A stretch of DNA of 64,000 nt, taken from positions 7,143,501 through 7,207,500 of the forward strand of contig NZ_JAUSYN010000002.1 in the NCBI RefSeq assembly GCF_030816915.1. Direction: 5' to 3'. Made by a program: the position numbers and the translations under genes. Below, piece after piece: positions 51,686-62,295 of this stretch (positions within the stretch are counted from its first letter, which is position 1; every line of letters begins with the position of its first letter). Below the pieces are notes generated by a model, which ran no database searches, was not told the origin of the DNA, and worked only from the letters and a program-made list of their open reading frames with translations. This DNA comes from Streptomyces sp. B3I8 (GTDB lineage Bacteria > Actinomycetota > Actinomycetes > Streptomycetales > Streptomycetaceae).

Positions 51686-52285
51686 TCAGGTGCTCGTACT
51701 TGCGCTTGTGCTCGTGCTGATGCGCAGGCCGTCCAGGGTGAGGTCCAGAAGGCGCTCCGCCCGGGCGCGGTCCTCGCGGCCGGAGGAGGTGAGGGCGATG
51801 CCCTCCAGCGCGGTGCCCATGTCGTCGGGGCCGATGTCGGTGCGGATCGCGCCCGCGGCCACGCACGCGTCCATGAGGACGCGCAGTGCGCCCCAGATCA
51901 GCTCGCGGCTGTGGCCGTACGGGTTGCCGCGCCCCGACGCGGCGATGGCGCGCAGGGCGTCGATCACGCCGTACTTGACCGTCACGTAGTCCAGGAAGAG
52001 CCGGGTCCAGTCGTGCAGCGCCTCCAGGGGAGGCTTCTGCGCCAGCAGGGCGGGGGCCGCCTCGCAGAGCTGGGCCACCTCGTTGCGGTAGACGGCCTCG
52101 ACCAGCGCCTCACGGGTGGGGAAGTTGCGGTACAGCGTGGCGCTGCCCACCCCCGCCTCCTTGGCGATGCGCTCCAGATGGGCGTCGAGTCCCTCCGTCG
52201 CGAAGACGCGCACGGCGGCGGCGAGGATCTTCTCCCGGTTGCGCCGCGCGTCGGCGCGCAGGGGGCGTGCCGCTTCCTCGGTCAT
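51686..52285 (-). CDS. TetR-family regulator (divergent from SDR)
   Basis: 199 residues. HTH: RRNREKILAAAVRVFATEG and IAKEAGVGSATLYRNFPTRE. Closely resembles the TetR at 34730 in its first 70 residues and shares its divergent layout with an SDR gene. The C-terminus ends in a Ser/Thr repeat. Confidence 0.87.
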   Translation of the reverse strand: MTEEAARPLRADARRNREKILAAAVRVFATEGLDAHLERIAKEAGVGSATLYRNFPTREALVEAVYRNEVAQLCEAAPALLAQKPPLEALHDWTRLFLDYVTVKYGVIDALRAIAASGRGNPYGHSRELIWGALRVLMDACVAAGAIRTDIGPDDMGTALEGIALTSSGREDRARAERLLDLTLDGLRISTSTSASTST

Positions 52286-52321
52286 CGGTGTTCGTCATCC
52301 CTTCCCAGGCATCCCGGCTTG

Positions 52322-52377
52322 CTAAGTGGGGGCGTCCCCACTTAGCCTCGAAGGGAAGTGGGGACGCCTCCACTTCC
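52322..52377. promoter_or_regulatory. Two AAGTGGGG/CCCCACTT operators
   Basis: Site 1: CTAAGTGGGG (52322-52331), 4-base spacer, CCCCACTTAG (52336-52345), perfect. Site 2: GGAAGTGG (52354-52361) with CCACTTCC (52370-52377). Their centres are 32 bases apart between TetR and SDR. Confidence 0.72.
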
Positions 52378-52430
52378 ACTGTAGGCCACCCATCGGCCTG
52401 CCCATCCACCGATCCTTCGAAGGACGTGTC

Positions 52431-53168
52431 ATGTCGGGAATCAAGGACAAGGTCATCGCGCTCACGGGCGCCAGCAGCGGCATCGGTGAGGCGACGGCGC
52501 TGCATCTCGCCGCGCGGGGAGCCCGCGTCGTGCTCGGCGCCCGGCGCAAGGACCGGCTGGACGGCGTGGTGGACCGGATCACCGCGCAGGGCGGCTCGGC
52601 CGTCGGAGTCGTCGTGGACGTCAGGCACCGTGCGGACCTCGCGCTGCTCACCGGCACGGCGGTGGACCGCTTCGGCCGGCTCGACGTCCTGGTCTCCAAC
52701 GCGGGCACCATGGCGGTCTCCCCGTTCGACGAACTGCGCCAGGACGACTGGGACGCCATGGTCGCCACCCACATCACGGGCCTGCTCAACGGCATCGGCG
52801 CGGCACTGCCGGTCTTCCGGCGGCAGCGCTCCGGCCAGTTCGTCAACGTGGCCTCCACCGCCGCCTACGTGGTGAAGGCGCCCATGGGCGTCTACGCGGC
52901 GACGAAGACGGCGGTGAAGATACTGACCGAGGGGCTGCGCCAGGAGTCGGGACCCGACCTGCGCGTCACCCTCGTCTCCCCGGGGTTCACCGACACGGAG
53001 GGCGTGGGCAAGGCGGGGAGCCCCGACATCGCCGGGGCGCTGGTCCGGCGGCGCGACGAGATCGCCATGCCGCCCTCGGCGGTCGCCTCCGCCATCGCCT
53101 ACGCGATCGAGCAGCCCGCGGGCGTCGACGTCGGCGAGATCGTCGTCCGCTCGACCGCGCAGGACTGA
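52431..53168 (+). CDS. SDR-family oxidoreductase
   Basis: 245 residues. TGASSGIGEA cofactor motif, VLVSNAGTM, catalytic Ser in VASTAAYVVK, YAATKTAVK. C-terminus of the YdfG/serine-dehydrogenase type (VDVGEIVVRSTAQ). Likely under control of the divergent TetR; substrate unknown. Confidence 0.86.
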   Translation: MSGIKDKVIALTGASSGIGEATALHLAARGARVVLGARRKDRLDGVVDRITAQGGSAVGVVVDVRHRADLALLTGTAVDRFGRLDVLVSNAGTMAVSPFDELRQDDWDAMVATHITGLLNGIGAALPVFRRQRSGQFVNVASTAAYVVKAPMGVYAATKTAVKILTEGLRQESGPDLRVTLVSPGFTDTEGVGKAGSPDIAGALVRRRDEIAMPPSAVASAIAYAIEQPAGVDVGEIVVRSTAQD

Positions 53169-53235
53169 GGGCGGGCCCGCGCGGTCGAGCGTAAGGGCGC
53201 GGTCGGGCGGCGGGCGCCCCCGGGCGGCGGCCGGT

Positions 53236-54744
53236 TCAGCCGCCGTGGGTGGATCCGCTGCGGTAGTCCGTGTACGTGTACGGGTTGTCGAGGATCTTCG
53301 TCTCCGGCACGTCCGGATTCATGCCCTTCCGCCAGCCCTCCTCGCCGAGCGACTCGCGCAGATACGCCACCGTGCCGTCGATCTCCCGCCGTGCGGCGGC
53401 CAGGTCGACGCCCAGCAGCCGGTGCTCGTGCTTGACGACCCTGCCGTTCACCAGGACCGTGTGCACATCGCCGCGCTGGGCCTGGAAGGCCACGTGACCG
53501 TAGGGGTTGAGCAGGGGGAACGAGACCGGCGAGTGGTCGTTCTTGATCAGGACCAGGTCCGCCTTCCTGCCGGGTTCCAGGCTGCCCAGATCGTCACGGC
53601 CGAGGGCGTGCGCGCCCCCGCGCGTGGCCCAGGAGACCACCTCCTCGGCGCGCAGCGCGACGTGCGTGACGGTGTCGCCGTTCGCCTGCGCCTGGAGGTG
53701 CTCCCGGGAACGGTCGGCGCCGAGAGTGGTCCGCATCGCGGAGAACAGGTCGCCGCTCCACCAGACGCTGGTGTCCATGGACAGCGACACCGGGATGCCG
53801 TGGGCGCGGATCGCCCAGGTGGGCGGGTAGCCCTGGCCCGCGCTCTGCTCGCTCTCGGTCGAGACCGAGACGGAGCCGCCGGTCGCGGCGATGCGGTGGT
53901 AGGAGTCGGCGGACAGCGAGGCGGCGTGCACGTAGACCGTCTGCGGGGTCATGAACCCGTGGTCGTACATGAGCCGGATGCTGTCGTCGCCCGTTGCGCC
54001 CCACACGCCGGCGTGCGTGGTCACCGGCACGCCGAGTTCGCGGGCCACCTCGAACGCCGGCCTCTCCGGGAAGGCGGGGTCGCCGGTCACGTCGAAGGCG
54101 AGCTGGAAGCCCAGCATGTCGTCCCCGGTGATCCGGCGCCGCACGAAGTCGCGGAACTCCGGGCTGCCGGTCCACTCGGCGGGCGGCTGCTGGATGTTGC
54201 CGTAGGCGAGGACGGCCCGGCCGGGCACCGAGCGCAGGGCGTCGACGGCGGCGTCCGCGTGGTCCACGGTCCGCAGACCGTGCGACCAGTCCACCACCGT
54301 GGTGACACCGGCGTCGATCGCCTCCATCGCCGCCAGCAGGTTGCCCGCGTGGACGTCCTCGGGGCGGAAGAGCTTGCCGGACTCCAGGTAGTACCAGACG
54401 AAGTACTGGGTGAGGGTCCAGTCGGCGCCGTAGCCGCGCATCGCGGTCTGCCACATGTGGCGGTGGGTGTCGATCATGCCGGGCATCACGATGCCGTCCG
54501 TGGCATCGATGACGGCGGTGCCCTCGGGAACCTCCAGACCGTGCCCGACGGCGGCTATCCGGTCGTCGACGACGAGCACGTCGGCGCCCGTGAGGACCCG
54601 GCGTGAGGCGTCCATCGGCAGCACCGTCCCGCCCCTCAGGACCACCGGTCGTCCAGGGCGGAACTCGCTCGCCCCGCTCGATCCGCTCGCCCCGCTCGGC
54701 CTGCTCGATCCGCCCGGCTCACCCGGTCCGCTCGACTCGCTCAT
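53236..54744 (-). CDS. Amidohydrolase (AtzA/TrzN/SsnA type deaminase)
   Basis: 502-residue metal-dependent hydrolase. After a Ser/Gly-rich tail of about 28 residues the chain has the outer beta-sandwich, then metal ligands MIDTHRHMWQT (HxH), VPVTTHAGVW (His), YVHAASLSADS (His) and SMDTSVWWSGD (Asp). These define the cytosine-deaminase/chlorohydrolase group acting on amino- or chloro-substituted heterocycles and guanine-like rings. Start ATG at 54744. Divergent from the IclR gene, with boxes shared with the CoA-transferase promoter, so it belongs to the same regulon. Its place in the pathway is not known. Confidence 0.82.
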   Translation of the reverse strand: MSESSGPGEPGGSSRPSGASGSSGASEFRPGRPVVLRGGTVLPMDASRRVLTGADVLVVDDRIAAVGHGLEVPEGTAVIDATDGIVMPGMIDTHRHMWQTAMRGYGADWTLTQYFVWYYLESGKLFRPEDVHAGNLLAAMEAIDAGVTTVVDWSHGLRTVDHADAAVDALRSVPGRAVLAYGNIQQPPAEWTGSPEFRDFVRRRITGDDMLGFQLAFDVTGDPAFPERPAFEVARELGVPVTTHAGVWGATGDDSIRLMYDHGFMTPQTVYVHAASLSADSYHRIAATGGSVSVSTESEQSAGQGYPPTWAIRAHGIPVSLSMDTSVWWSGDLFSAMRTTLGADRSREHLQAQANGDTVTHVALRAEEVVSWATRGGAHALGRDDLGSLEPGRKADLVLIKNDHSPVSFPLLNPYGHVAFQAQRGDVHTVLVNGRVVKHEHRLLGVDLAAARREIDGTVAYLRESLGEEGWRKGMNPDVPETKILDNPYTYTDYRSGSTHGG

Positions 54745-54789
54745 CCGTGGACTCCTCACACCGCGGGTACGACCTCGGTGGCGGACGAC

Positions 54790-54806
54790 TGTCCGCCAAG
54801 CGGTCG
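54790..54806. promoter_or_regulatory. Candidate IclR box 1 (weak)
   Basis: TGTCCGCCAAGCGGTCG; agrees at 13 of 17 positions with box 3. Lies close to the amidohydrolase start. Confidence 0.4.
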
Positions 54807-54903
54807 CCAAGGGATGGTTGTCACTCTGGGCAGCGGGTCCGACGGTGTCAAGCGCCCGTACGGAATCGATCGGCGCGGGGGCGGGACGGCGAGGCGGGCA
54901 GGG

Positions 54904-54920
54904 CGTCCGTACACCGGTCG
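54904..54920. promoter_or_regulatory. Candidate IclR box 2
   Basis: CGTCCGTACACCGGTCG; 16 of 17 bases as in box 3 at 56167. Confidence 0.6.
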
Positions 54921-55149
54921 CACGTCGACCAATGCCTGCGCGGGCCGCGCATGGGAAGGGCTCACGCATGCCGTGCGCACGCTCTCCACCTGTGGTTCCG
55001 CCGCTCGTGAGTGGGCGGGAGGGGCGGAGGGACCGCCCTTGACGGCTGTCCGTCTGCCGGACGCACCGGCGCACCCGTGCAGTAGGGTGGCGCCCGCTCC
55101 GTCAGGCGGTTCCCCCGCCGTCCCCGACAGATCGTTGCGAGGAGAGACC

Positions 55150-55947
55150 ATGCCGCGCGAGGGCACCGGACCGGATTTCATCGAGGCACTGGCCCGCGGC
55201 CTGGAGGTGATCACCGCGTTCGCTCCGCACCGGCCCGTCATGGCGCTGAGCGAACTCGCGACGGCGACCGGGCTGGCGCGGCCCACCGTGCGCCGCATCC
55301 TGCTCACTCTGCAGGAACTGGGGTACGTGCGGGCGGACCCGCAGGGGTTCGCCCTGACCCCGCGCGTGCTGGAGCTGGGGGTCGCCTATGTGCGGTCCAT
55401 GGGACTGTGGGACGTGGCCCGGCCGCACATGGAACGGCTGTCGGCGGGAACCGGCGAGTCCGTGTCCGCGGCCCAGCTCGACGGCTCCGACATCGTGTAC
55501 GTGGCGCGCGTGTCGGTGCCGAAGATCGTCGCCCTCGCCGTGCAGATCGGCACGCGCTTCCCGGCGTTGCAGACGTCGCTCGGCAAGGTGTTGCTCGCCG
55601 CGCTCGACCCGGGGCGGCTGGACGAGGTCCTGGCCGAGCCCAGCAGGTCCGGCCTGGTACCGCGCTGGCAGCCGGAACGCGCCGAGCGCGACGCGGAGCT
55701 GCGCGAGGTGCGGGCGCGTGGCTGGGCGCTCACCGACGAGCAGCTCACCCTGGGGATCCGCTCGGTGGCCGTGCCGCTGCGCGACGGCTCGGGCCGGGTG
55801 ATCGCCGCGCTCAACGTCAACGCCCACGCCGCCGAGACTTCCGTCGAGCGGCTGCTCGACCACCATCTGCCGCTGCTGTTGCAGGCGGCCGGCGAGATCA
55901 GCGCGGACTTCGCCCGTCTGGAGACGGCCCCCCACGTCGTCCGGTAA
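55150..55947 (+). CDS. IclR-family transcriptional regulator (PcaR/PobR-like)
   Basis: 265 residues. N-terminal winged helix (LSELATATGLARPTVRRIL, LTLQELGYV) and C-terminal effector domain (VALAVQIGTRFPALQTSLGK, LGIRSVAVPLRDGSGRVIAALN). PcaR/PobR relatives respond to aromatic acids and govern ring-cleavage genes. It stands between the amidohydrolase and the CoA-transferase/dioxygenase genes and is the likely regulator of both. GAGGAGA precedes the ATG. Confidence 0.88.
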   Translation: MPREGTGPDFIEALARGLEVITAFAPHRPVMALSELATATGLARPTVRRILLTLQELGYVRADPQGFALTPRVLELGVAYVRSMGLWDVARPHMERLSAGTGESVSAAQLDGSDIVYVARVSVPKIVALAVQIGTRFPALQTSLGKVLLAALDPGRLDEVLAEPSRSGLVPRWQPERAERDAELREVRARGWALTDEQLTLGIRSVAVPLRDGSGRVIAALNVNAHAAETSVERLLDHHLPLLLQAAGEISADFARLETAPHVVR

Positions 55948-56070
55948 CCAGTGCCGCAACAGGCATCGTTCGCCCCGCCGCGACGACCGGCACGCTCCCT
56001 CGGGCTCTCGGCATCGCTCGAACCGAGGGGCCCCCGCTCGCCGCACCACCAGGCAGCGGTTCCCTCGTTC
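55945..56070. mobile_element. Possible decayed MITE relative
   Basis: The stretch after the IclR stop contains CACGCTCC...CTCTCGGCATCGCTCG...CTCGCCGCAC in the same order as the interior of the 44346 element, but the ends are degraded. Weak. Confidence 0.3.
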
Positions 56071-56120
56071 CGTGCGTGCGCTCGGCGGCCCCGGAGGAGC
56101 GCACGCGCACTCTCCGACCC

Positions 56121-56151
56121 TTGACGTCCGCGCCGTCCGTCGTGCCAGAAT
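56121..56151 (+). promoter_or_regulatory. Promoter of the CoA-transferase/dioxygenase operon
   Basis: TTGACG (56121-56126), 19-base spacer, CAGAAT (56146-56151). The IclR box at 56167-56183 lies just downstream, fitting repression. Confidence 0.5.
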
Positions 56152-56166
56152 CGGAGAGCGGACAGT

Positions 56167-56183
56167 CGTCCGTACAGCGGTCG
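56167..56183. promoter_or_regulatory. Candidate IclR box 3
   Basis: CGTCCGTACAGCGGTCG, imperfect palindrome (GTCCG and CGGTC arms), 20 bases before the CoA-transferase start. Confidence 0.6.
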
Positions 56184-56203
56184 ACGCTTGGAGGCGGTCT
56201 CTG

Positions 56204-57424
56204 ATGGCAGACGACACCGGACCCGACTCGCAGGCCGGGGGCGGCGGTCCCCTGTCGGGACTGCTGGTCGCCGACTTCTCCCGCATCCTGGCGGGTCCCT
56301 ACGCCACCATGCTGCTCGCCGACATGGGCGCCGACGTCATCAAGGTCGAGGGGCCGCGCGGCGACGACACCCGCACCTGGATGCCCCCGGTACGCGACGG
56401 CGTCTCCACGTACTACCTGGGCGTCAATCGCGGCAAGCGTGCCCTCGCACTGGATCTGCGCGACCCCGACGACGCCGCCGCGGCCCGCGAACTCGCCCGC
56501 CGCGCGGACGTCCTGATCGAGAACTTCAAGCCCGGCGGCCTCGACCGCTACGCACTCGGCTTCGACTCCGTGCGGGAGGACAACCCCGGCATCGTCTACG
56601 CCTCCATCAGCGGCTTCGGCACCGGTCCGGGGCGGAACGTGCCCGGGTACGACCTCATGGTGCAGGCGATCTCCGGGCTGATGAGCCTGACCGGCGACCC
56701 GGACGGGCCGCCGTACCGGGCGGGGATCTCCGTCTTCGACGTGATGGCCGGCAACCATGCCGTCATCGGCATCCTGGCCGCCCTGCGCCACCGCGATGCC
56801 ACCGGCACCGGCCAGCACGTCGAGGTCAATCTGCTGTCGTCGGCGCTGACCGGACTGGTCAACCACAGCTCCGCCTACGCGGCCGGCGGCGTCGTCCCCT
56901 ACCGGATGGGCAACGCCCACCCCAGCGTCTTCCCCTACGAGCCGCTGCCCACCGCCGACAACGACCTCATCGTCACCGCCGCCAACGACGGCCAGTTCCG
57001 CAGGCTCTGCGAGGTGCTCGGCATCCCCGAGGTCGCCGACGACCCACGGTTCGCCCGCAACGCCGACCGCACCGAGCGCCGCGACGAGCTCCGGCCGCTG
57101 CTCGTCGAACGGCTGCGCGTCCGCGGCGCCCTCGAGTGGTTCGACCTGCTGGTGGCGGCCGGGGTGCCGTGCGGCCCCATCAACACCATCGACGGCGGCT
57201 TCGCCATGGCCGAACGCTTCGGCCTGGAGCCGGTCGTGGAGGTCGGCGAGGGGGACCGCACGGTGCCCACCACCCGGCATCCCATCCGCTTCTCCGCGAC
57301 CCCGGCCACCTACCGACTGCCCCCGCCCGAACCCGACGAGCACGGCGCCGAGATCCGGGCCTGGCTCAACGCCCCCCAAAGCGCCGGGACTTCAACGACC
57401 TCCCAGGAGGACGGCGATGGCTGA
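56204..57424 (+). CDS. CaiB/BaiF-type (class III) CoA transferase
   Basis: 406 residues. Family motifs: LLVADFSRILAGPYATMLLAD, ADVIKVEGPRGDDTR, IENFKPGGLDRYALG and SGFGTGPG, followed by PGYDLMVQAISGLMSLTG with the catalytic Asp. It moves CoA between carboxylic acids. It is first in an operon with a citryl-CoA-lyase-like gene (8-base overlap) and the LigAB-type dioxygenase, so it may activate a ring-cleavage tricarboxylate. GGAGGCGG precedes the ATG. Confidence 0.87.
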   Translation: MADDTGPDSQAGGGGPLSGLLVADFSRILAGPYATMLLADMGADVIKVEGPRGDDTRTWMPPVRDGVSTYYLGVNRGKRALALDLRDPDDAAAARELARRADVLIENFKPGGLDRYALGFDSVREDNPGIVYASISGFGTGPGRNVPGYDLMVQAISGLMSLTGDPDGPPYRAGISVFDVMAGNHAVIGILAALRHRDATGTGQHVEVNLLSSALTGLVNHSSAYAAGGVVPYRMGNAHPSVFPYEPLPTADNDLIVTAANDGQFRRLCEVLGIPEVADDPRFARNADRTERRDELRPLLVERLRVRGALEWFDLLVAAGVPCGPINTIDGGFAMAERFGLEPVVEVGEGDRTVPTTRHPIRFSATPATYRLPPPEPDEHGAEIRAWLNAPQSAGTSTTSQEDGDG

Positions 57425-58280
57425 CGACCGCCCCGCGCCCACTACCGGCCCCGGGCCCGCGCCCGCACCCGTGTACCCCACCGCCCTCGGCGCGTCCTCC
57501 CGTGAGTCGATCACCCTGCTCGGACACGACCTGGCCCGCGACATCATGGGTGAGGTCGGCTTCGGTGAACTCGCCTTCTGGCTGGCCACCCAGCGACGGC
57601 CCACCCCCGGCGAGACCCGCGTCTTCGAGGCCGTGCTCGCCGCCCTCGCCGACCACGGCTTCACGCCCACCGCGATGGTGACCCGGCTGACCTACCTCTC
57701 CGCGCCGGACTCCGTGCAGGGTGCGCTCGCCGCCGGACTGCTGGGTGGCGGCTCCCGCTTCCTCGGCGTCACCGAGGACTGCGGCCGCTGGCTGCACGAC
57801 GTGCTGACCGGACTCGACGGCGCGCTGCCCGAGGACGACGCCGGCTGGGACGCGGTGGCACTGGAGACCGTACGGGCCCGGCGCGCGAGCGGCCGGTTCG
57901 TCCCCGGGCTCGGCCACCACGTCCACAAGGACGGCGACCCGCGCACCCCCCGGCTGCTCGCCCTCGCGGCGGAGGAGGACCTCCTCGGGCCGCACCTGAC
58001 GCTCTTCACCGCGATCGGCCGGGTCCATCCGCACGTGCTCGGCCGTACCCTGCCGTTGAACGGCGCAGGCGTCTGCGGGGCCGCGCTGGCCGACCTCGGC
58101 CTGCCGCTGGAACTACTGCGCGGCTTCGCCCTGCTGGCCCGCACCGCCGGACTGATCGGCCAGCTCGCCGAAGAACTGCGGCACCCGGTCGCGAACGAGA
58201 TGTTCCTCTCCGTCGACCTCAACAACCGCTCGGTACCACCCGACCCGTACACCCCCGGTCCGTGCACCCCCGACTCGTGA
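57417..58280 (+). CDS. Citryl-CoA lyase-like (citrate synthase superfamily) protein
   Basis: 287 residues, shorter than citrate synthase (about 370-430) and in the size range of citryl-CoA lyase. Small and large domain segments include LLGHDLARDIMGEVGFGELA, LTYLSAPDSVQGALAAGLLG, and the active-site loop VPGLGHHVHKDGDPRT with the catalytic His. A later NGAGVCGAALADLGLP resembles the second catalytic stretch. It should cleave or form a C-C bond beta to a CoA thioester. The start overlaps the CoA-transferase stop, with CCAGGAGG before it. A Pro-rich tail follows. Confidence 0.8.
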   Translation: MADDRPAPTTGPGPAPAPVYPTALGASSRESITLLGHDLARDIMGEVGFGELAFWLATQRRPTPGETRVFEAVLAALADHGFTPTAMVTRLTYLSAPDSVQGALAAGLLGGGSRFLGVTEDCGRWLHDVLTGLDGALPEDDAGWDAVALETVRARRASGRFVPGLGHHVHKDGDPRTPRLLALAAEEDLLGPHLTLFTAIGRVHPHVLGRTLPLNGAGVCGAALADLGLPLELLRGFALLARTAGLIGQLAEELRHPVANEMFLSVDLNNRSVPPDPYTPGPCTPDS

Positions 58281-58408
58281 CCTCCCGACTCGTCCCCCCG
58301 GCCCCCGCTCCCTGCTCCCCGCTCCCTGCTCCCCGCCCCCCGACCCCTGCACCGCCGAGCCGCTCGGGCCGAAGCCGACGCCCGCCGGTCCCACCAACGG
58401 AGGTCCGC

Positions 58409-59272
58409 ATGGCTGAACTGGTCGCGGTCATCGCGTCCACGCACCACCCCTTCTACTACCGCGCCAGCACCTCCACCGGCGACGACCGCCCGCCCTTCGC
58501 GGACGAATGGGTGCGCAAGATCGAGGCGTTCCGCGAGACCCTGACGAAGGCGCGCCCGGACGTGCTGGTGATGGTGGGCTCGGACCACTTCCACCAGCTC
58601 TGGCTGGACAACATGCCCCAGTTCCTGGTCGGTAAGGCGCCCGTCTACGACGCCAACTTCCACAACGAGGAACGCGAGTTCGGCCTGCCGAGAATGGTCC
58701 TCCAGGGCCAGGAGGACCTCTCCGCGCACCTCCTGCGCGGCGGCCTGGACGCCGGCTTCGACCTGGCCTTCTCCAACGAGCTGCGGATCGACCACTCCAT
58801 CACATGCCCGATCATCACGCTCCGCCCGCAGAACGACCTGCCGATCGTCCCTGTCTACACCAACATCTTCGCGCCCCCGCTGCCGCGCCCCGAACGGTTC
58901 GTCCAGCTCGGGCGCGCGATCCGGGCCCTGGTGGAGTCCTGGCCCGCCGACCAACGGGTCGCGGTGATCGGCACCGGTCACCTGTCCCTGGAGCTGGGCG
59001 GGCCCCGGCAGTTCGGACCCACCGGACCCGACCCGGAGTTCGACCGCAAGGCGGTCCGGTGGATCGGGTCGGGCGACATCGAGGGCTGCCTGTCCGAGGT
59101 CACCCTCGACAGCCTCCATCTGCCCGGCAACGCCACCCACGGCTTCATGGACTTCATGCTGATGATGGGCGTGGCGGGGGAGGGACTGCGGGCCGACTAC
59201 GTCGACACCTACGACCTCTTCCACACGATGGAGGCGTACTTCACCTGGTACCCGAAGGGCGGCCGGCCGTGA
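58409..59272 (+). CDS. Class III extradiol ring-cleavage dioxygenase, catalytic (LigB-like) subunit
   Basis: 287 residues. LigB fold: the Fe(II) ligands lie in ASTHHPFYY (His pair) and near the Glu/His segments; GSDHFHQLWLDNMP carries the catalytic histidine; later GTGHLSLELGG and DYVDTYDLFHTME. Related to protocatechuate 4,5-dioxygenase and gallate dioxygenase beta chains. It opens a diphenol ring next to the hydroxyls using O2. GGAGGT precedes the ATG; 4-bp overlap with the small-subunit gene. Confidence 0.85.
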   Translation: MAELVAVIASTHHPFYYRASTSTGDDRPPFADEWVRKIEAFRETLTKARPDVLVMVGSDHFHQLWLDNMPQFLVGKAPVYDANFHNEEREFGLPRMVLQGQEDLSAHLLRGGLDAGFDLAFSNELRIDHSITCPIITLRPQNDLPIVPVYTNIFAPPLPRPERFVQLGRAIRALVESWPADQRVAVIGTGHLSLELGGPRQFGPTGPDPEFDRKAVRWIGSGDIEGCLSEVTLDSLHLPGNATHGFMDFMLMMGVAGEGLRADYVDTYDLFHTMEAYFTWYPKGGRP

Positions 59273-59628
59273 GCAAGTATCTGCTGAACAAGTTCCTGTT
59301 CACCGTCGACCGAGATGCGGAGCTGGTCGAGCGCTACCGCGAGGACCCGCGCGCCACGGTGACCTGGTGGGAGGAGGAGTACGCCAACCGCATCCTCAAC
59401 TGCGTCACCGGCGAGTCCTCCACCTGGTTGCGGTTCGACGAGGCCGAACGGGAGGCGCTGGCCACCCACGACTACGTCACGCTCTTCGAAATGGGCGCGC
59501 ACCCGTTCCTGACCCTCACCCTGTTCATCGGCCTCTTCGAGCGTGACCACCCGCCGATGGGCTTCCAGACCGAGTACGCGAGGAGACTGGCGCACATGTC
59601 GCTGCCCTACCCCGACATCGCCACCTGA
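59269..59628 (+). CDS. Extradiol dioxygenase small (LigA-like) subunit
   Basis: 119 residues, LigA-type all-helical alpha chain: SKYLLNKFLFTVDRDAELVE, WLRFDEAEREALATHDYV, LFEMGAHPFLTLTLFIGLFE. It caps the active site of the LigB subunit. Starts at GTG 59269, overlapping the LigB stop (GTGA). Last gene of the operon. Confidence 0.83.
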   Translation: MSKYLLNKFLFTVDRDAELVERYREDPRATVTWWEEEYANRILNCVTGESSTWLRFDEAEREALATHDYVTLFEMGAHPFLTLTLFIGLFERDHPPMGFQTEYARRLAHMSLPYPDIAT

Positions 59629-59889
59629 GGGCGACGGGACCGGAGCCGGCGCCGGCTGCGTGTGCACGGGCGCGTGGGTGCGCGGAAGCGGGTAGGGCGG
59701 AACGGCACGGCCGGGCGGGAAAACGTCGTCATCCGGCGTCGGGTCGGCCAGTACGGGTACTTCACCGGCGAGGGCCCGCACGGCCCGGTCCGCGTCGTCA
59801 CGCGACGGTCGCGCCGTGCCGTACACGGTCGACCGCAGCCGCCGTCGCGCGGCGCGACCGTCGCAGCGCCGCACTTCAAGGAGCGCCTC

Positions 59890-60231
59890 ATGGACTACGA
59901 ACGTGAGCTGGCCGAGATCGAGCGGCAACTCCTGACCCAGGATCCCGACCTCGCGGCCGAACTGGACACCTTCGGCGACATCACGAAGGCCCAGCCGGTC
60001 CCCTGCCGGCCCGCGCCCGCCGTTCCCCCGCCCGCCGAGCCGTCGCGCCTCCGCGCCGTGCGCCGCAGACGACGGCTGCTCATCGCGGCCTGCGTGGCCG
60101 TCGCGCTGATCGTCGTCGCCCTCATGTCCGCCCTCGGCGCCGGTGCCGCGACCCACCGGCCGGACCACCGGACTCACCGGCCCGGCCACGCCCTCCAGGG
60201 CCCGGGGCCGGGCGTGTACGGGCGCGCCTAG
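59890..60231 (+). CDS. DUF3040 family membrane protein
   Basis: 113 residues. The start MDYERELAEIERQLLTQDPD is the DUF3040 signature, followed by a Pro-rich stretch, a basic cluster and one membrane helix (LLIAACVAVALIVVALMSAL). The C-terminus ends GPGVYGRA and the TAG stop belongs to a MITE end, so the natural C-terminus may be altered. GGAGCG precedes the ATG. Confidence 0.75.
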   Translation: MDYERELAEIERQLLTQDPDLAAELDTFGDITKAQPVPCRPAPAVPPPAEPSRLRAVRRRRRLLIAACVAVALIVVALMSALGAGAATHRPDHRTHRPGHALQGPGPGVYGRA

Positions 60232-60383
60232 GGCCTGTTGTGAAAGTCCCGCCTGGCCCCGCGACGCCATGCACGCTCCCCCAAGTTCTCGGCTTCGTTC
60301 GAGCAGGGGGACCCCCAGAGCACTCACCTGACGCCGCAGGGCCCGCCCTCCGGGCGGACGACGGGACTTTCGCAACAGCCCCA
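60229..60383. mobile_element. MITE, shorter copy (about 155 bp)
   Basis: Left end TAGGGCCTGTTGTGAAAGTC, right end GACGGGACTTTCGCAACAGC. The interior matches 44346-44588 except for an internal loss of about 88 bp. The first three bases form the stop codon of the DUF3040 gene. Confidence 0.8.
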
Positions 60384-60394
60384 GCCGAATGCCG

Positions 60395-60745
60395 TCAGGC
60401 CGCGGCGGCGAACGCCGCGTCGATGGCGGTGGCCGTACGCGCGTGCACGACCAGTCGACAGCCACCGGTGTCCGCGCCCGCCTCCAGCAGTCGCCGCGCG
60501 GGCGCACTGTGGGTGGACACGGACATCAGGACGCCCAGGCCGCTGCACAGGCGGTGGGCGCGCAGTACCGCGCCGACCGTGGGGTCTCCCGTGGCGGGCT
60601 CCTCGAGGACGACCACGACGGGCCTCGGCCGGTACGCGTGGACCAGATTGCCGATCTCCGCGGCGAGCGCGGCACGCCCGGCGGGGCCGGGATCGCGGTG
60701 CACGGTGAGGACGAGGACACCACGCTCGAGCGCATGAGACAGCAT
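60395..60745 (-). CDS. STAS-domain anti-sigma antagonist-like protein
   Basis: 116 residues with a STAS fold pattern (GVLVLTVHRDPG, NLVHAYRPRPVVVVLEEP, GVLMSVSTHSAPARRLLE). The loop expected to hold the phosphorylated Ser reads ATGDPTVGAVLR, with Thr in place of the usual Ser, so regulation may differ. Partner-switching proteins of this type are substrates of SpoIIE phosphatases such as those at 296 and 7079, but no direct link is shown. Confidence 0.75.
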   Translation of the reverse strand: MLSHALERGVLVLTVHRDPGPAGRAALAAEIGNLVHAYRPRPVVVVLEEPATGDPTVGAVLRAHRLCSGLGVLMSVSTHSAPARRLLEAGADTGGCRLVVHARTATAIDAAFAAAA

Positions 60746-60909
60746 GCCTGCTCCCTTCCAGCGACCGGCGGCCAGTGCCAGTGCGTCACCGCGGAAGTAC
60801 CCCGCGTGGGCCGAGCGAATCGGGGTGCCGGTTGTTTACGCCCGATCCGGAGGGTGACTTGACCCGGAACCGTGCGTTTCACCAGAAACCATCCCGAAGG
60901 AGCAGCGCC

Positions 60910-61104
60910 ATGGCCGGCATCAGCCCCATCGACCTCCAGAAGGCCCTCAAGGGCGCCGACTATCCCGCGAGCCGCGACGATCTGGTCGAGCTGGCCAGGA
61001 ACAACGGGGCGGACAGCGCCCTCGTCGACAAGCTGTCGCACGCCGACGTGGCGGAGTTCGACGGCCCCAACAAGGTGCAGAAGGCCGTGTTCGACAACGG
61101 GTGA
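60910..61104 (+). CDS. DUF2795 small protein
   Basis: 64 residues: SPIDLQKALKGADYPASRDD, LVELARNNGAD, and FDGPNKVQKAVF are the DUF2795 pattern. Soluble, helical. Function unknown, often stress-induced in actinobacteria. GGAGCAG lies before the ATG. Confidence 0.85.
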   Translation: MAGISPIDLQKALKGADYPASRDDLVELARNNGADSALVDKLSHADVAEFDGPNKVQKAVFDNG

Positions 61105-61267
61105 CGGGGCGGCCGGCCTGACCGGCCGAGCCGGCCGACGGACGGACGACCGTGCCCCCCGGCGCACCCCTGCGGGCTTCAGCGGCCCCCGCGCGCTGTG
61201 TCCCCCGCGCTTGCGGGGCCGCCGGGCCCGCGCGGGGCCGAGGTGTCCGAAGGGTGGATTCCCTACG

Positions 61268-61281
61268 TTTCCCATAGGAAA
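61268..61281. promoter_or_regulatory. TTTCC-CATA-GGAAA inverted repeat
   Basis: Perfect 5-bp arms, 18 bases before the ATG of the TauE/SafE gene; a plausible operator. Confidence 0.4.
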
Positions 61282-61299
61282 ACTCACTAGTGTGCGGCC

Positions 61300-62295
61300 A
61301 TGGATCTTTCCGGGCCGCTCATCCTTTCCGGGGCTCTCGTCGGCCTTGCCGTAGGGCTCACCGGTATGGGTGGCGGCGCGCTCATGACGCCGATCATGGT
61401 CATGTTCTTCGGGGTGAACCCCACCGCGGCCATCGGCAGCGACCTCGCCGCATCCGTGTTCATGAAGCCGTTCGGAGCGGTCGTGCACCAGCGTGCCGGC
61501 ACCGTGCGCTGGGACATCGTGCGCAGGCTGCTGCCCACCGCCGTTCCTGCCGCGTTCGGCGGCGTCTTCCTGCTCCGCACGCTCGGCGACGGCGACGCGC
61601 TGCAGCGACGAGTCAAGTACGTCATCGGCGCTGGGCTGCTCCTCGCGGTCCTCGGCATGCTCGTCCGCATGTGGCTCGACCGGAGGCGCGATGCCGCCGG
61701 GGACGAGTCCGGCGACGTGGCCGTGCGCCCGCTCGTGACCCTGGGAATCGGACTGGTCGGTGGCACCGTCGTCGGCATGACCTCGGTCGGCTCCGGGTCC
61801 CTGATCATCGTGATGCTGATGCTGGCCCATCCACGGCTCAAGGCGAACCAGCTCGTCGGCACGGACCTCGTGCAGGCCATTCCGGTGGTCGCCGCGGCCG
61901 CGCTCGGGCATCTGCTGAGCGGCGACGCGGATCTCGGACTCGCGGCGACGCTGCTCGTCGGGGCGGTCCCGGGTGTCGTCGTCGGAGCCCTGCTGTCGAC
62001 CCGGGTCACGGGACCGGCGCTGCGGTGGGTCCTCGTGGTGCTGCTGACGGGGTCGGGTCTGTCCATGCTGAAGGTGCCGGGCGGCGTCCTCGTGGCCGTG
62101 TCGGTGCTGATCGCCGGGGCGGGGGCCGGGCTCACGCTGAGGGACCGAAGGCGAGGTGCCGTACCCGTCCGGGCGCCGGCGCCGGCGCCGGTGCCGGAAC
62201 CGGTGCCGGTGCCGGGGTCGGGGTCGGGGTCGGGGCCGGCGGAGGGCGACGACGCGACGCACGTCGCCGCGGAGGAGGCGCGCCTGTCGTCCTGA
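61300..62295 (+). CDS. TauE/SafE (TSUP) family membrane exporter
   Basis: 331 residues, about eight helices. Two TSUP signature regions: GLAVGLTGMGGGALMTPIM in the N-half, GGTVVGMTSVGSGSLIIVML in the C-half. TSUP members export sulfite, sulfoacetate or related anions. The cytosolic C-terminus after the last helix is a low-complexity Pro-Val/Gly-Ser stretch encoded by a GC tandem repeat near 62170-62240. Confidence 0.87.
   Translation: MDLSGPLILSGALVGLAVGLTGMGGGALMTPIMVMFFGVNPTAAIGSDLAASVFMKPFGAVVHQRAGTVRWDIVRRLLPTAVPAAFGGVFLLRTLGDGDALQRRVKYVIGAGLLLAVLGMLVRMWLDRRRDAAGDESGDVAVRPLVTLGIGLVGGTVVGMTSVGSGSLIIVMLMLAHPRLKANQLVGTDLVQAIPVVAAAALGHLLSGDADLGLAATLLVGAVPGVVVGALLSTRVTGPALRWVLVVLLTGSGLSMLKVPGGVLVAVSVLIAGAGAGLTLRDRRRGAVPVRAPAPAPVPEPVPVPGSGSGSGPAEGDDATHVAAEEARLSS
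62170..62240 (+). repeat. Low-complexity GCC GGY tandem repeat
   Basis: Short repeats of GGCGCC, GGTGCC and GGGTCG units code for the Ala/Val-Pro then Gly-Ser tail of the TauE protein. Likely length-variable between strains. Confidence 0.7.

Follow-up and report, generated by a model that had tools for sequence, protein, structure and literature searches.

A conserved gene cluster of Streptomyces sp. B3I8 that looks like an undescribed route of aromatic degradation, with the usual catalytic residues replaced in two of its enzymes

Gene content of the locus

The window, that is the whole stretch of DNA that was analysed, comprises 64,000 nucleotides of the Streptomyces sp. B3I8 genome (contig NZ_JAUSYN010000002.1, positions 7,143,501 to 7,207,500), and positions are counted from its first nucleotide. 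Open reading frame and profile checks of the region 53236-59628 identified genes for an amidohydrolase, an IclR-type regulator, a CaiB-type CoA-transferase, a citrate-synthase-fold protein resembling citryl-CoA lyase (here called Ccl), and proteins related to the LigB and LigA dioxygenase subunits (Table 1), confirming both the set of six genes and the positions given in the initial annotation. That annotation had described the genes as all tightly packed or overlapping, which holds for CaiB/Ccl (8 bases of overlap) and LigB/LigA (4 bases, with the start codon of LigA over the stop codon of LigB), but is slightly overstated, since IclR and CaiB are 256 bp apart and a gap of 128 bp separates LigB from Ccl. 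The reported absence of classical meta-pathway genes from the cluster was borne out, as no LigC-, LigI-, LigJ- or LigK-type gene was present among the ten genes profile-scanned from 51686 to 62295. Genes were called acyl-CoA-synthetase-like on visual inspection.

Table 1. Genes of the cluster, with positions in the window
Product	Position	Strand	Remarks
Amidohydrolase	53236-54744	-	PF01979, PRK08204-like; divergent from the operon
IclR-type regulator	55150-55947	+	TIGR02431, 275.7 bits (cut-off 284.75); near PcaR/PcaU/PobR
CaiB-type (family III) CoA-transferase	56204-57424	+	PF02515, 392.6 bits
Ccl, citrate-synthase-fold 'citryl-CoA lyase'-like protein	57417-58280	+	NF004868, 261.8 bits (cut-off 193)
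LigB-fold putative catalytic subunit	58409-59272	+	PF02900
LigA-like small subunit	59269-59628	+	GTG start; PF07746, E 0.0021, 18.6 bits (cut-off 25.3)

Elsewhere in the genome we found a canonical LigAB (C2:2463434), nine Amidohydro_2 matches (not counting the amidohydrolase of the cluster) and a single RraA-like match. Judged from the listed gene starts only, the neighbourhood of the canonical LigAB shows no complete meta-pathway.

Conservation of the cluster

Conservation of gene content was assessed in 80 loci, the best of 159 retrieved with LigA as query; several of the 80 are cut by contig ends. Ccl and LigB accompanied LigA in 80/80 of these loci, CaiB in 79/80, the amidohydrolase in 76/80 and the IclR regulator in 73/80. 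This co-occurrence, which the initial annotation had put forward as a check, is thus near-complete, and the cluster is a real module and not a chance neighbourhood. It was also found in Alphaproteobacteria and in one Chloroflexi bin, while two loci (L207 and L208) have the cluster without the amidohydrolase. Within a sample of 246 genomes, seven encode a LigB with at least 79% identity, and Ccl adjoins it in six of the seven. The seventh, genome G173 (L160), is a counter-example, its LigBA being accompanied by no Ccl or CaiB within the 13 kb of sequence retrieved, and two rhizobial plasmids carry LigBA without Ccl or CaiB nearby according to an incomplete gene table.

A quinone-oxidoreductase-like MDR gene, absent from the gene list of the initial annotation, is a frequent member of the cluster. 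It directly follows LigA in 56/80 loci (74/80 have >600 bp of sequence there), and overlaps the LigA stop codon in the near relative G438 (L191); no copy was found after LigA in the window.

Active site of LigB

The predicted structure of LigB has a mean pLDDT of 77.5, with values <50 at residues 61–64, 68–73 and 193–200, and among solved structures its fold comes closest to those of the gallate dioxygenase DesB and of LigAB. Alignment with these proteins showed that LigB keeps His12, His60 and His129, the first two of which correspond to the metal ligands His12 and His61 of LigAB and are present in 81/81 rows. The carboxylate ligand Glu242 of LigAB (Glu239 in DesB) is replaced by Gly245, and the catalytic His195 (the essential His192 in DesB) by Leu194, again in 81/81 rows, and both the iron-ligand Glu and the catalytic His are absent from LigB in 80/80 loci. 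Two other histidines are conserved, His191, three residues before Leu194, and His244. The conservation figures for LigB and Ccl come from the best 120 of 1457 and the best 120 of 8000 scored homologues, respectively, and hence both lean to close relatives.

By its PF02900 fold LigB belongs with the class III extradiol dioxygenases, but lacking the iron-ligand Glu and the catalytic His it cannot be classed as a LigAB-type enzyme by active site, which weakens the initial description of it as such. A plain LigAB-pathway annotation was rejected as a claim of membership, since the equivalents of Glu242 and His195 are missing. The alpha subunit of 2-aminophenol dioxygenase is a non-catalytic LigB subunit, and a corresponding role for the LigB described here was rejected because the cluster showed only one LigB gene. 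According to PMC3962378, activity of the DesB His192Phe variant is undetectable, and with two catalysis-linked residues gone, LigB may not be an oxygenase. PMC11926856 describes a His as third metal ligand in DODA, which makes a shifted ligand possible in LigB, and the sequence would allow His244 to be, perhaps, that third ligand.

Ccl, CaiB and the amidohydrolase

Ccl passes the NCBIfam cut-off for citryl-CoA lyase (Table 1), matches the citryl-CoA lyase 6hxp with 85.5 bits in phmmer, and keeps the GLGH motif, with His167 in 81/81 rows. The NVDG motif, the Asp of which we take to be a catalytic residue in citrate synthase, citryl-CoA lyase and ACLY, is changed to NGAG, with Ala217 in 81/81 rows and also in the best 120 of the 8000 homologues scored, and the first catalytic His of citrate synthase and citryl-CoA lyase is a Phe, so that lyase chemistry is not assured. 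With the exception of two rows, the remaining Ccl-type proteins of the alignment also have Ala, Thr or Ser in place of the Asp.

CaiB is a family III CoA-transferase by its PF02515 match and its conserved Asp150 in the sequence GYDLMVQ, this Asp presumably being the nucleophile. The amidohydrolase keeps the HxH, His, His and Asp residues, and its six best solved relatives (65–96 bits) are amidohydrolases, deaminases and one chlorohydrolase. The Glu of the HxxE motif, present in the aligned deaminase-like 3hpa and presumably functional in such relatives, is absent from 7/7 amidohydrolase sequences aligned. Deamination of the s-triazine type, or the dechlorination or deamination of a heterocycle suggested initially, is a candidate function of the enzyme.

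An intradiol dioxygenase in place of LigBA

In a sample of 35 genomes anchored on Ccl, the gene directly downstream of Ccl encodes LigB in 21 and an intradiol dioxygenase in six, never both, with neither in the remaining eight. Five of the 35 Ccl matches (G515, G499, G593, G231 and G119) have an internal stop within the matched stretch. LigB lies directly after Ccl in L206, where the computed gap of -1219 is an artefact of open-frame extension. The intradiol protein of L147, the sole one of the six compared with solved structures, has its closest matches among hydroxyquinol 1,2-dioxygenases, suggesting a product of the maleylacetate type and not of the citrate type; four other intradiol proteins are 37–41% identical to it. 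An amidohydrolase is retained in 6/6 intradiol-type loci, although that of L148 belongs to another amidohydrolase clade. A maleylacetate reductase hidden in the cluster was ruled out, as neither the six intradiol-type genomes nor the genome of the window gave a match to PF00465 (Fe-ADH, the maleylacetate reductase family) up to 30 kb from the cluster. Replacement of LigBA by an intradiol enzyme in the same position, together with the near-complete co-occurrence in the 80 loci, argues for one pathway.

VOC proteins are encoded near Ccl in 6/8 of the genomes with neither enzyme. We do not claim these as direct replacements of LigBA, since their distance of 1.5–8 kb from Ccl does not make for a clean replacement comparable to the intradiol one, and one type also occurs together with LigB in L085 and L099. 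G066 and G119 have a membrane-protein-like frame after Ccl.

Proposed pathway and alternatives

We propose, with a probability of about one half, that the cluster forms a dedicated catabolic module, with ring opening, CoA transfer and C–C cleavage acting on a hydroxyquinol- or pyrogallol-type ring. The reactions, substrate class and order of steps that we infer are as follows. An easily oxidised polyhydroxylated ring of this type would be opened with O2 by LigB and LigA at a remodelled metal site in which His12 and His60, and perhaps also His244, would serve as ligands, while His191 may substitute for the usual base, and the product would be the same kind of dicarboxylic acid as that formed by an intradiol hydroxyquinol 1,2-dioxygenase. 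CaiB would load CoA onto the acetate-like end of this product, and C–C cleavage by Ccl would yield acetyl-CoA together with an oxo- or dicarboxylic acid. In most relatives, the quinone-reductase-like protein encoded after LigA would probably keep the triol reduced, and the amidohydrolase may hydrolyse either a precursor or the ring-opened product. A more specific proposal, which we make tentatively, is that a LigB fold without the 2-His-1-carboxylate set and base cleaves the ring just as the intradiol hydroxyquinol dioxygenase does. The product would then enter a new lower pathway, being converted to a CoA ester and split by an Asp-less citrate-synthase-fold enzyme, with maleylacetate reductase as well as LigC/I/J/K bypassed. 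The cluster thus looks like an undescribed aromatic-degradation route in which two enzymes have their usual catalytic residues replaced. From the earlier interpretation we retain the sequence of ring cleavage, CoA transfer and a citrate-synthase-fold enzyme, as a unit kept across phyla; its order of CoA ester, then lyase gains support from the intradiol dioxygenase in the LigBA slot in 6/35 Ccl-anchored genomes. Its LigAB-type enzyme is weakened by the residues missing from LigB, and its citrate-like acid by the lack of an identified hydratase in the main cluster, the missing catalytic Asp of Ccl and the hydroxyquinol-type enzyme of L147.

In an unlikely alternative, LigBA would cleave a ring resembling that of gallate or protocatechuate. 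Hydration of the product (e.g. 4-oxalomesaconate) would yield a tertiary alcohol similar to citrate, which CaiB would activate, and a genuine citryl-CoA-lyase-type reaction would then release acetyl-CoA and an oxo acid. Such a route is consistent with DesB and LigAB as nearest solved folds of LigB, with the 277.6 bits of CaiB against succinyl-CoA:mesaconate CoA-transferase (cut-off 700), and with the LeuD-type hydratase subunit after LigA in Rhodococcus NBC_00297 and the LeuCD or MmgE/PrpD genes adjoining other Ccl-type genes. However, the main cluster has no hydratase, unless the amidohydrolase is one, Ccl has lost the catalytic Asp and first His, LigB the equivalents of Glu242 and His195, and the enzyme taking the LigBA slot in 6/35 genomes is hydroxyquinol-type where tested. 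We consider it rather improbable that the amidohydrolase is the ring-opening oxygenase, with LigBA carrying out a non-oxidative step. This would follow the example of KpiC of Arthrobacter, an amidohydrolase_1 protein which opens 3,4-dihydroxypyridine according to PMC7356986, and would agree with the missing HxxE Glu and the two key residues missing from LigB, but LigB keeps His12, His60 and His129, an amidohydrolase stays in all six loci where an intradiol dioxygenase replaces LigBA, and the comparison with KpiC is one of described function. That LigBA is an extradiol dioxygenase of the ordinary LigAB type in which the ligands have shifted, and that the CaiB/Ccl pair serves an unrelated short-chain acid under a merely common regulator is very improbable in view of the co-occurrence and the intradiol replacement at the same position, even with LigBA lacking CaiB/Ccl in G173 and the two rhizobial plasmids and with CaiB/Ccl pairs lacking ring-cleaving genes, such as that next to LeuCD on Cupriavidus pBB2.

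If the proposed CoA-dependent pathway is true, it adds a lower route, common to soil actinomycetes and rhizobia, to the known ring-cleavage pathways, and constitutes a natural experiment with extradiol-fold and intradiol-fold enzymes in the same job. It would also suggest that the database name 'extradiol dioxygenase' and many 'citryl-CoA lyase' names rest on folds without the catalytic residues.

Comparison with known systems

We found no description of this cluster in the open-licence literature. Compared with LigAB protocatechuate 4,5-dioxygenase and DesB, to which it is ~22–24% identical, LigB has Leu for His195 and Gly for Glu242, and the neighbouring genes of the cluster differ from theirs. 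Ccl shares fold family, length class and the GLGH His with citryl-CoA lyase (6hxp) and the C-terminal domain of ATP-citrate lyase, but has Ala for the catalytic Asp of NVDG and Phe for the first His. The KpiA/B/C 4-hydroxypyridine pathway of Arthrobacter IN13 likewise includes an amidohydrolase_1 protein among its ring-opening genes, and FAD hydroxylase and hydrolase partners comparable to those of L148 and L162; according to PMC7356986, the kpi cluster has no LigB homologue, and the available part of the paper mentions neither CaiB nor a citrate-synthase-fold enzyme. The hydroxyquinol 1,2-dioxygenase/maleylacetate reductase pathway is similar in that an intradiol enzyme, nearest to its family where tested (L147), occupies the place of LigBA in 6/35 genomes, but differs in that the cluster has no Fe-ADH gene nearby, its dioxygenase gene lies after those for CaiB and Ccl, and the window carries LigBA and not an intradiol enzyme.

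Organisation and conservation of the gene cluster

The window corresponds to C2:7143501–7207500 of an 8.0 Mb genome (G000), with Streptomyces as the closest fetched relatives, and all six genes which the initial annotation had placed at 53236–59628 were found there (see table). The CaiB and Ccl genes overlap, as do those for LigB and LigA, with gaps of 256 bp between IclR and CaiB and 128 bp between Ccl and LigB. When LigA was used as the query against the genome_contigs collection, 159 relatives were identified; the analysis retained the best 80 of these, in which Ccl (80/80), LigB (80/80), CaiB (79/80), the amidohydrolase (76/80) and IclR (73/80) were present, with some loci ending early. 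The cluster is a real unit, and in these best 80 loci its hosts were Streptomyces, Nonomuraea, Microbispora, Pseudonocardia, Amycolatopsis, Actinomadura, Micromonospora and others, together with one Chloroflexi bin. A quinone oxidoreductase-like MDR gene lies directly 3′ of LigA in 56/80 loci (74/80 have >600 bp there) and overlaps the LigA stop in the near relative G438, while a search 3′ of LigA in the window did not find a copy.

When LigB was the starting point, seven of 246 evenly sampled genomes from the phylum carried it at ≥79% identity, and Ccl adjoined it in six; one of the seven, G173, had neither Ccl nor CaiB within the 13 kb fetched. LigB also matched in 189 plasmid records, reaching ≥60% identity in 11, six of which were examined. 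CaiB and Ccl were present in four of the six (Aminobacter MSH1 pUSP2, Rhodococcus NBC_00297, Martelella and Sinorhizobium B11), and neither was found within the stretch shown of the other two, where the gene table is incomplete. Rhodococcus NBC_00297 and G207 carry an MhpA-type FAD hydroxylase, an FrsA-like hydrolase and another amidohydrolase 5′ of the module, and the alphaproteobacterial versions have extra TRAP or ABC transporters, with an FMN_red-family reductase in 2/3. A MetE-like (Meth_synt_2) gene is located near the cluster in nine loci (L048, L076, L082, L085, L091, L098, L099, L107 and L108), and a gene of L161 annotated as uroporphyrinogen decarboxylase family reads like these.

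Features of the window and of fetched loci (L, loci of relatives or of the same genome)
Feature	Position	Strand	Description
TetR/SDR pair	51686–53168		Divergent, 5′ of amidohydrolase; same arrangement only in the two nearest of 80 loci (L036, L037)
Amidohydrolase	53236–54744	−	Divergent
IclR	55150–55947	+	Regulator
CaiB	56204–57424	+	Family III CoA-transferase
Ccl	57417–58280	+	Citrate synthase-fold, citryl-CoA lyase-like
LigB	58409–59272	+	Lacks LigAB/DesB Fe-ligand Glu and catalytic His
LigA	59269–59628	+	Small subunit
LigB/LigA pairs	L171:9974–11202; L172:4425–5653		Two rhizobial plasmids; LigB ~65% identical; near cytochrome P450 and alpha/beta-hydrolase genes; no annotated CaiB or Ccl nearby
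Sister LigB clade	L156:7465–10488; L166:10001–11163		34–37% identity, likewise without Glu and His; in L156 behind CaiB-like and Amidohydro_2 genes
Ccl-type gene set	L168:8974–13016		Cupriavidus necator N-1 pBB2; with CaiB and both 3-isopropylmalate dehydratase-like subunits; RraA and tricarboxylate transporter protein nearby
Canonical LigAB	G000:C2:2463434–2464219 (L187)		LigB with GTGGMSHQL and AGSEGIEM; LigA-like frame upstream and adjoining aldehyde dehydrogenase-like frame (both named by eye); Amidohydro_2 match ~30 kb away

Exchange of the candidate ring-opening gene downstream of Ccl

To avoid a LigA-based choice, genomes were also sampled by Ccl matches at E ≤ 1e-60, found in 20/297 genomes of the family and 17/396 of the phylum (35 distinct, including that of the window), and all 35 neighbourhoods were inspected. 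LigB was directly downstream of Ccl in 21/35, while an intradiol dioxygenase gene occupied this position on the same strand in six (G153, G072, G207, G310, G326 and G350), with homology starting at most about 105 bp from the Ccl stop. None of the 35 had both (Fisher p 0.0019, only a guide since the genomes are related). These genomes contain 80 intradiol-family matches in a total of about 228 Mb, and for six to fall in a 1-kb slot by chance p is about 3e-15, again a guide only given this relatedness. Well-supported branches of the Ccl tree require that the intradiol label changed at least twice. A stop lies inside the matched Ccl stretch in 5/35 (G515, G499, G593, G231 and G119).

The intradiol protein of L147 was nearest to PnpC and named hydroxyquinol 1,2-dioxygenases (240–192 bits), with catechol and chlorocatechol enzymes at ≤122. 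The solved-structure comparison covered this protein, to which that of L148 is 82% and the other four are 37–41% identical; the Tyr, Tyr, His, His set of intradiol enzymes is readable in L147 and L146. Fe-ADH genes (PF00465, maleylacetate reductase family) had no match ≤30 kb from the cluster in the six intradiol genomes and that of the window, the nearest on a shared contig being ~32 kb away (G310). In G326 and G350 intradiol and Fe-ADH genes adjoin elsewhere in the genome, providing an internal positive control, and these pairs suggest that the Ccl-linked intradiol enzyme serves a different ring.

Eight of the 35 had neither gene. In four (G032, G045, G241 and G557) CaiB was not found beside Ccl, which adjoins an acyl-CoA synthetase-like gene (named by eye), with a two-domain VOC protein in 3/4; G066, G264 and G422 have a one-domain VOC protein 1.6–8 kb from Ccl, and the frame 3′ of Ccl in G066 and G119 is membrane protein-like. 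CoA activation and Ccl thus stay constant, and it is the candidate ring-opening enzyme that varies.

Active site of Ccl

Ccl scores 261.8 bits with NF004868, the NCBI model for citryl-CoA lyase, which is above the cut-off of 193. In the alignment to 6hxp, however, Ala217 (NGAG) takes the position of the NVDG Asp and Phe that of the His in GSAHGG, with the GLGH His retained. Judged by these residues, which are catalytic in citrate synthase and citryl-CoA lyase, Ccl is, by its predicted active site, not a citryl-CoA lyase. The best 120 homologues listed share this pattern. Among 25 Ccl-type rows (the window, 22 relatives, G057 and G034) only G057 and G034 keep NVDG, the rest having Ala, Thr or Ser at the Asp position, where four citrate synthase rows have Asp or Glu. 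Since many of the aligned proteins lacking this Asp are annotated as citryl-CoA lyase, this database annotation may be a misnomer across a large subfamily. The gene set of L168 possibly represents a citramalate- or itaconate-like pathway with the same atypical lyase.

Proposed pathway and comparison with known enzymes

We propose that LigBA would open a polyhydroxylated ring, that CaiB would convert the product to a CoA ester, and that Ccl would cleave a C–C bond of this ester to give acetyl-CoA and an acid, a scheme to which we assign a probability of about one half; the quinone reductase-like partners may hold the substrate in a reduced state. The route from ring cleavage over a CoA ester to C–C cleavage, as first suggested, gains support, while its LigAB and citrate-like acid details lose it. 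A ring of the hydroxyquinol or pyrogallol type is favoured, because extradiol-fold and intradiol-fold enzymes can yield the same diacid from such rings, as replacement in one slot requires. The amidohydrolase retains HxH, His, His and Asp and lacks the HxxE Glu; KpiC, of the same family, is reported to be a ring-opening dioxygenase (PMC7356986), so that a protein of this type can have such an activity.
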